From the NCBI GenBank assembly GCA_903813345.2, contig CAIIXF020000009.1, forward strand, positions 22,905,759 to 22,969,758: a stretch of 64,000 nt of DNA, in the 5' to 3' direction. Positions 1,803-28,705 of the stretch are shown here, in pieces. The translations under genes and the position numbers were made by a program. The stretch comes from Owenia fusiformis (lineage: Eukaryota > Annelida > Polychaeta > Sabellida > Oweniidae). Every line of letters begins with the position of its first letter. Position 1 is the stretch's first letter. The notes under the pieces are model-generated. The model had not been told where the DNA came from. It saw only the letters and a list, made by a program, of their open reading frames with translations, and ran no database searches.

Positions 1803-4800
1803 ATGGAGGCAGTCTCAAAACACGATTTCAATGCGACTGCTGAAGACGAATTAAGCTTCAAGAAGGGAACAACATTAAAGGTATGTACACCCATATTGTT
1901 GATTTTATAGTGGCGAAGACTCAGAAAATTATATTTTGATACCCATTTTACGTCACACACTTTCGATTTGACATGAAAAAGTTGTTGTTTTTTAAAATTT
2001 CTATGAGGAAGTGACATGAATCATGTCTGGTGTCATGCATTGTCATAGAGCAGTGTGGTTCTTAAGATTTTTCTGTCACTTGCCAAGTGGTTATCACCTT
2101 GTGTTTTCACAATCCACAATGAAAAATTACTCTCACATGTTCACATGCTATCTATTGCAAGACTAACGCCTGGTGTAACCTAGTTCAACAAGTTAAACCC
2201 AATACCACGGCTTTCATTTATAATCTGAGTGTTCTTGTTGCCGTGGTTGGGTTTAACTTCCGTGCTATGCTTTCATTGGTTGCAAATTCTCACTATCAGT
2301 TATTAATAAAACGCGCATGGAATTCCATGCGCTGCCATAGGCCATCATTAAAAATTTTTGCATCAAAGGCCGAATAGGCACGGATGTTAAACCTAGGGCG
2401 GGCCACAAGAAATGTCAGATAAGAAATAAGGCCCAGACTAGGTTTAACTTGTTGAACTAGGTGTAACCGTCACCATGTTATTCGGTGTTTTTTAAGTAGC
2501 GCAAGGATCCTGCCATGACCGTGGCAGTGTTATTTTGTAAGCCTGGTATAACCGTGACAACGCTGTATTATATTGCAAGGCCTGTCATGACCATGAGTGT
2601 TATCGTGGAAGCCTGGCGCAGCCGTAGCCTTTACGTTTAATTTAAGAATTTTTTATTGTTGTTTGTTAAGCGATTTGTTTACTATCCACTTTTAAATATT
2701 CGTATATTTGTATATTTTACCAGATACATTATATGTCTCTGTCTTTATGAATGTTGACCCAAGCTGCCCATGACCGTGATAATGTTAAAGCCCCGTATGA
2801 CCGTGACAATGGTTGCAAGGCCTGTCATGACCGTGGTAATGTTAAAGCCTAATATGACCGTGACAATGCTTATAAGGCCTGTCATGACCGTGGTAATGTT
2901 AAAGCCTGATATGACCGTTACAATGCTTGCAAGACCTGTCATAACCGTGATAATGCTATATTATATTGCAAGGCCTGTCATGACCGTGGTAATGTTAAAG
3001 CCTTGTATGACCGTGACAATAGTTCCAAGGCCTCTCATGACCGTGGTTGTATTTAAAGTAGCATGAGAACACTGTAATGACAATTTTTCTTCGTGTTTAA
3101 CTACCTTAAATATGTAAATAAAGACTACTAAAAATGTGTATTAATTTCACAACGAAAACCTAATTTTTACTCATAAATAATTTGCGAACAAACTATATCT
3201 CTACTCTCATTCAAGGAGCTTCGATTCGAAAGCATATACTTTCTATAATGATCAATTAATAAGATTTATCCATAAAAAATACCAACAGCAATGGGCGAAA
3301 CATGAAGGTCATTAATGTCATATAAAGGTTGCGGTCGCGCCAGGCTTACACGATTACACTACCACGGTCATGGCAGGCATTTTAATATAATACAGCATTG
3401 TCGCGGTTATACCAGGCTTTCACGATAACATTACCACGGTCATGGCAGGATCCTTGCGCTACTTAAAAAACACCGAATAACATGGTGACGGTTACGCCAG
3501 GCGTTAGTCTTGCAACAGATAGGGTCTCACTATGTTCCACTCGATAAATTAAATGTATACTCACAGTTTTCTTTTTGAAAAGTACCCCATACCCATGATT
3601 CAGGTTGCTTTTCTGTCATACAATATCTCTCACAGATATCTCATACCAGTGTTCGCGTTGACGCCGTTTTTTCTCGTTTTTACGGAAATTTCAAGAGGTC
3701 AGACGGAAAAATCAGAAATAACTTACGTCCTTGGGACGCAAAGATTCTACACCACCATCAGGTAACTTTTACTGCAGCGTAGAAGAAATAAAACATGATT
3801 TTCTGAAGAATTTTCAAATCGTCTACTTCCTTGATCTCGATAATGTTTATGTCGGTAAATCTGATTGGCTACCGAAGTGTCTCAGTATATTCGCGTGGTT
3901 TCTAGTCTGAAACGCAGCATTTGATTGGCTATGGTGCCCTCCGAGTCATTCCGGAGTATACCGAAGCTGGATAATCTGTTGTACGCAAACATTAGTTTCA
4001 AAATTGAGAATTGAGACTTGTTTTTCACGATAACCTTAATTACTTCCGCTAGGAACCATTAGATATCGATCTAATGTTATACCTCAATATAATTATTTAA
4101 TGATAGATCAACGTTTTTCATCTAAAAGTCGTCAGAGTAAGGAGAAATGTTATAAAAAGAAACAAAAAGTTCACGACCTTGACACGACCTTGAAGATCGC
4201 TGGTTGGTAAAATGTGAAAACAACTCTTAATTTGAATATTTCTTTCATTCATTTCGGAGAATTTTAGTATAGCATTAGTAAAGAATTGTGTGAAAAGGAC
4301 CAAATGATAGATATTTATCGGGAGAATGCATAGAATTACAATACATGTCATTTTTATCCCGTTTTAGCGGAAGCACTCTATTATCGCCCACTTTACTTTC
4401 ACTTTAATAATAAAATATGAGGGACGCAAAAAAAATTAGACGGGACTCACATTTTTCAAATGTGTTGCGTCCCTGGGACTCAGAAATTTAAATAGCTAGC
4501 GCGAACACTGCATACTTATGCATATTTAGCAATATTACAGCAATAATGAATATACCTGTAAGGGACAAATAGGGATGGACAATTTGTGCTCATTTATTCA
4601 TGGAGAAGTGAAGTGACATCCACAAATCCGAATTCCGAATCCAGTTTATATTCTGTCATTACACTTCTGTTGGAAGTATGTTGTTTCTTTTACATTAAAC
4701 GAAAATATTTCTGCAATATTTGGAGCAATATGGGTATAAACTGAAAAAATAACATGGTGGATAGACCTCAAATTACAAGAGGGCAAAGGCTTATTGCACT

Positions 4801-28705: not shown

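Follow-up and report, generated by a model that had tools for sequence, protein, structure and literature searches.

Owenia fusiformis carries at least four GRB2-type adaptor genes on a single contig, C9, and we consider it fairly probable that they form an adaptor family that grew stepwise by duplication on one chromosome, in which copies A, C and probably D would serve as GRB2/Drk adaptors and copy B as a similar adaptor with changed affinity. Copies A and B lie in the window, the whole 64,000-base stretch of DNA analysed here (C9:22905759-22969758). The initial annotation described them as a tandem head-to-tail pair of full SH3-SH2-SH3 genes; this was confirmed, both genes being intact and on the + strand, but a whole-genome search with copy A showed that they are not only a pair. 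Flies and nematodes are usually described with a single GRB2 gene, as against four here, and in invertebrates GRB2 is commonly regarded as the only hub that connects receptor tyrosine kinases with Ras. Four intact copies that range from nearly canonical to strongly diverged offer a natural test of the duplication and specialisation of a central adaptor outside vertebrates, the studied example of adaptor specialisation being vertebrate GRB2, GRAP and GADS.

Copy A spans positions 1803-14781 of the window and encodes 244 aa in six coding exons, and copy B, separated from it by a gap of 8.4 kb, spans 23173-28705 and encodes 236 aa in five coding exons. In the gene models built from the window sequence, the reading frames of both copies are uninterrupted and every junction is GT/AG. 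All exons lie on the + strand. In copy A, the N-terminal SH3 domain starts in exon 1 (1803..1880, ending in phase 0) and is completed in exon 2 (8875..8972, ending in phase 2). The first part of the SH2 domain, with a 7-residue insert, is encoded by exon 3 (9762..9905), the counterpart of human GRB2 exon 4, and the second part by exon 4 (10186..10351, ending in phase 0); exon 6 (14566..14781) encodes the C-terminal SH3 domain and then the stop. The 33-base exon 5 (12300..12332) is an in-frame mini-exon that extends the linker before the C-terminal SH3 domain; it has no counterpart in the models of B, C and D and could be optional. In copy B, the N-terminal SH3 domain starts in exon 1 (23173..23250) and is completed, with a 2-residue insert, in exon 2 (26067..26170). 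Exon 3 (27095..27208) encodes the first part of the SH2 domain, with one residue missing beside the phosphotyrosine loop, exon 4 (27734..27935) the second part and linker, and exon 5 (28493..28705) further linker, the C-terminal SH3 domain and the stop.

A Pfam scan of A, B, C and D gave one SH2 and two SH3 stretches per protein, and all four have the SH3-SH2-SH3 arrangement without any other domain that marks the GRB2/Drk/SEM-5 family. Among solved structures, in a search that covered A and B, the top matches were full-length GRB2 chains (1.1e-84 for A and 1.2e-54 for B, residues 1-234 each), and C and D were compared with relatives in the protein alignment. The four copies are added members of a well-known adaptor family and no new kind of system. 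With Drk, SEM-5 and human GRB2 they have in common the order of domains, a similar length and the binding residues. Copy A had been annotated as Drk-like throughout; its 65% identity to Drk agrees with this description, but in contrast to Drk, SEM-5 and GRB2 it adds the SH2 insert, the extra 33-base linker exon and a longer C terminus, and its C-terminal SH3 domain also carries an insert. Copy B is much diverged from the same three proteins.

The 498-Mb assembly (525 contigs) was searched with copy A as the query; 72 candidates were scored, with 71 matches at E ≤ 10. In this search, which runs exon by exon and which a strongly diverged copy could escape, two further genes with a matching exon pattern and intact frames were detected on C9: copy C at about C9:22190477-22194934 (22.19 Mb, + strand, 215 aa) and copy D at about C9:19763089-19768597 (19.77 Mb, – strand, 225 aa). 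The list of matches to copy A contained no series of GRB2-like exons on any other contig. The next-best match, on contig C6, which is the one among the remaining SH2 and SH3 matches that was identified individually, has SH3 and SH2 in one frame and was rejected as a GRB2 gene; its motif reads Abl-like. In the first exon of copy D (C9:19768490-19768597), the RT loop of the N-terminal SH3 domain holds a 10-residue, mostly hydrophobic insert, and the usual Asp of the ALYDF motif is absent; with both changes, this domain may no longer be a normal binder. Pattern searches of viral and of prokaryotic contigs gave 193 and 93 matches, respectively, and no relative of the four copies was among them.

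Sequence identity set copy B apart from the other three. Over aligned columns, and with manually entered comparison sequences, A was 63.8% identical to C, 62.3% to D and 45.7% to B, and its identity to Drk, SEM-5 and human GRB2 was 65.4%, 58.6% and 64.4%, respectively; C was 61.1% identical to Drk and 82.2% identical to D. Copy B was the outlier, with at most 47.4% identity to any of the eight others (human GRB2 47.4%, GADS 42.5% and GRAP 39.2%).

A protein phylogeny with GRB2, GRAP and GADS, proposed together with the initial annotation, was built from nine rows and 224 columns. The sole supported grouping was C+D (100/99), and copy B had a long branch (1.4-1.6 changes per column). The p-AU values were 0.30 for all four copies together, 0.34 for A+C+D and 0.50 for A+B; neither A+B nor a clade of all four was rejected. 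In addition, B+GADS was barely disfavoured (0.0498), and the values were 0.057 for B+GADS+GRAP and 0.045 both for B+C+D and for B with the three vertebrate genes. When rows were removed or the model was changed, A moved among three places, with C+D, with B or with Drk and SEM-5, and its support was weak in every case: depending on row set and model, the best tree did or did not contain A+C+D, and B joined A in one set. When human GRAP and GADS were left out, the four copies formed one clade in the best tree under two models (support 57/73 and 53/72). For A and B as mutual closest relatives there are the p value of 0.50 and one best tree, while identity and synonymous sites would rather group A with C/D.

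At synonymous sites, NG86 dS was 0.36 for C-D, 1.0 for A-D and 1.3 for A-C, and for each of the three pairs that include B it was saturated and gave no value. From the NG86 figures, dN/dS for C-D, A-C and A-D was 0.20-0.30, i.e. purifying selection. Identical codons were used at 74 of 127 residues shared by A and C (51.7 expected) and at 79 of 125 shared by A and D (49.5 expected), and neither number was reached in any of 5000 shuffles. For the pairs with B, the counts were 43/94 (A-B), 38/84 (B-C) and 36/81 (B-D), and 628, 701 and 734 of 5000 shuffles, respectively, reached the observed number. In all four copies, 67 positions have the same residue; there, the codon was shared 57 times in C-D, 41 times in A-C, 43 times in A-D, 35 times in A-B, 32 times in B-C and 33 times in B-D. 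Here too, no shuffle reached the observed number for A-C or A-D, and 95 of 5000 did so for A-B (a mild excess), 406 for B-C and 264 for B-D; four paired codon comparisons at these positions were not significant (p 0.06-0.33). Synonymous sites suggest that A is nearer to C/D than it is to the adjacent copy B, but the stricter paired comparisons did not reach significance.

The synonymous distances also bear on the timing. A dS of about 0.36 supports a recent C/D duplication, and a dS of about 1.0-1.3 points to an older split between A and C/D that is probably lineage-specific. The initial annotation had proposed a lineage-specific duplication of two genes. Duplication did take place, and A, C and D probably arose by a lineage-specific expansion, but the copies number four, and B, with its dS saturated, may be either lineage-specific or older. 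By our reconstruction of the order, B would have split off first by duplication within chromosome C9, A would then have separated from the ancestor of C/D, and the split of C from D would be the last and most recent. That B separated early is argued chiefly from its saturated dS and from protein distance, and the latter would look the same if B had evolved fast.

The first three introns of A and B had been annotated at the same position and phase, and the alignment placed them at identical residues and phases; in A, B, C and D alike they fall at human V27 (phase 0), P59 (phase 2) and K100 (phase 2). Skipping of human GRB2 exon 4 leads to loss of residues 60 to 100 (PMC10968029). The positions of introns 2 and 3 fit the borders of this stretch, the comparison with the human gene being one of position. 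Because two of the shared introns bound the stretch encoded by human GRB2 exon 4, the shared introns most likely go back to a GRB2 gene common to animals, in which case they would carry no information on the timing of the A/B split; shared intron position was ruled out as a mark of a recent A/B pair. Copies C and D have the domain order and these three introns in common with A and B but lack the phase 0 intron that lies between SH2 and the C-terminal SH3 in both A and B. Taken alone, this intron would pair A with B; it could be an inherited intron that has disappeared from C/D, or it could connect A with B.

In the alignment, A, C and D keep 7/7 of the phosphotyrosine-pocket residues checked and W121, and B keeps 5/7 (S90N and K109R being the changes) and W121. 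Copy B had been annotated as keeping both SH2 arginines and the specificity tryptophan but with changed surfaces; R67, R86 and W121 are retained, together with S88, S96 and H107, and its SH2 domain carries S90N, K109R, F108W, L111M and L120V and has one loop residue missing. For these pocket residues, and for Trp121, which we take to select Asn at +2, we assume the roles they have in GRB2-type SH2 domains. In the N-terminal SH3 domain of GRB2, Tyr7, Phe9, Trp36, Pro49 and Tyr52 are the residues that contact SOS (PMC10968029). At sites 7, 9, 36, 49 and 52, B has Y, Y, W, P and Y, plus N51T. The other three copies carry H, F, W, P and Y, the same as Drk, in a comparison that covered the residues outside the insert of D. 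The C-terminal SH3 domain of B is near standard, with W193, P206, N208 and Y209 kept and the changes F165Y and E171D. Because each of its three domains retains most of the binding residues, B most likely works like GRB2/Drk, and the simplest reading of its sequence is that of a functional adaptor that differs in affinity or in the partners it selects.

In the proposed family, A, C and probably D would bind phosphotyrosine-x-Asn on receptors and docking proteins through their SH2 domains and proline-rich partners, SOS among them, through their SH3 domains, and would thereby activate Ras. Copy B would most likely act by the same route, with altered affinity or partner choice. RhoGEF, RasGEF-N and RasGEF matches were close together at two places in the genome, on contigs C8 and C10. 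The C8 exon tested was SOS (SOS1 match 2.7e-24), and the C10 exon tested was closest to 2ije (1.2e-27, vs 2.3e-8 for SOS1), which we take to be Ras-GRF1. One SOS locus was found in this comparison of one exon each of C8 and C10, among more places with RasGEF matches. About 29 kb (29,000 bases, + strand), starting within the last catalytic exon, was scanned for an SOS tail with SH3-binding motifs; it contained one isolated P..P.K match and no cluster, but the tail exons may be short or lie further on. If all four adaptors depended on a single SOS, they would have to compete for it or be divided among tissues. The initial annotation had suggested a division of labour in Ras signalling, and this is a hypothesis.

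The age of copy B admits another account, in which B is an old paralogue that predates the split of spiralian or bilaterian phyla and still lies beside A, and only A, C and D are lineage-specific. We regard this as unlikely on balance, yet worth serious consideration. The saturated dS against A, C and D, the low identity to every relative used and the failure of B to join any other row with support in the nine-row tree are all consistent with it, and public annotations of molluscs and annelids carry a second gene under names such as "GRB2-like" or "GRB2-related adapter". However, the tree leaves room for the four copies as one clade (p 0.30) and recovers that clade in the best tree without human GRAP and GADS, and the tandem position favours local duplication, short of proof. 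A more speculative and rather doubtful form of this account would make B a long-standing second spiralian adaptor with a retuned SH2 pocket (S90N, K109R and the loop deletion) and N-terminal SH3 domain (F9Y and N51T), which would compete with the other three copies for receptors or for the single SOS detected, as an independently evolved invertebrate parallel to GADS.

Gene decay or an error of assembly is a very improbable explanation of B. Its long protein branch and the repetition of its exon 3 donor within intron 3 would fit such an origin, but 236 open codons in five exons with GT/AG junctions and most binding residues kept argue against decay. Furthermore, B sits inside a 38.9-Mb contig, and blastn of the A region against the B region gave no similarity, so that B is no mis-assembled second copy of A. 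A correspondence of B to vertebrate GADS or GRAP is highly unlikely. Some of its states are shared with GADS (e.g. Met in place of human L111 and Tyr in place of F165), but against this stand the p-AU rejections given above, which are marginal, and an identity to GADS and GRAP that is no closer than that to human GRB2. Like the copies here, vertebrate GRAP and GADS are diverged extra copies of the same adaptor, but the long linker of GADS is absent from copy B, which has no sequence affinity to GRAP or GADS.

The donor repeats are a feature of intron 3 of B in their own right. Between 27209 and 27480, the intron echoes the end of exon 3 and its donor, with GTCAAGTA at 27237, 27270, 27303, 27368 and 27446. 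Use of a later donor would lead to a stop directly past the normal junction, and such mis-splicing would truncate the protein.

The expansion favoured here, of at least four GRB2-type genes on one chromosome, was compared with published work. Grb2 is described as present from choanoflagellates on, and the passages concerned do not mention extra copies there (PMC7260276). The term 'grb2' is absent from the main text of a paper on the Owenia fusiformis genome (PMC9977687), no paper in the open-access literature combined 'Owenia fusiformis' and 'Grb2', and GRB2 expansion in annelids or molluscs was in no title among the open-access matches listed. The genome paper describes 12 chromosome-scale scaffolds, with the Hox cluster on chromosome 1. 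In the assembly searched here, a homeodomain search gave a Hox series on contig C1, in which one member has the KLTGP motif, a Lox5 signature of spiralians, and others are Hox1-4-like, Lox2/Lox4-like and Post2-like.

Several repeats and two other genes were also observed in the window. A minisatellite with a 27-base unit (about 25 copies) lies between A and B at 18172-18834, another with a 57-base unit lies in intron 1 of A at 2769-2955, and an array of short units was spotted by eye in intron 2 of B at 26190-26600. Beyond copy B, on the + strand, are a PP2C-type phosphatase at 47391-51301 (Pfam 1.1e-5 on the first piece, the later pieces by eye) and a galactose-3-O-sulfotransferase at 59750-61261 (1.8e-50).
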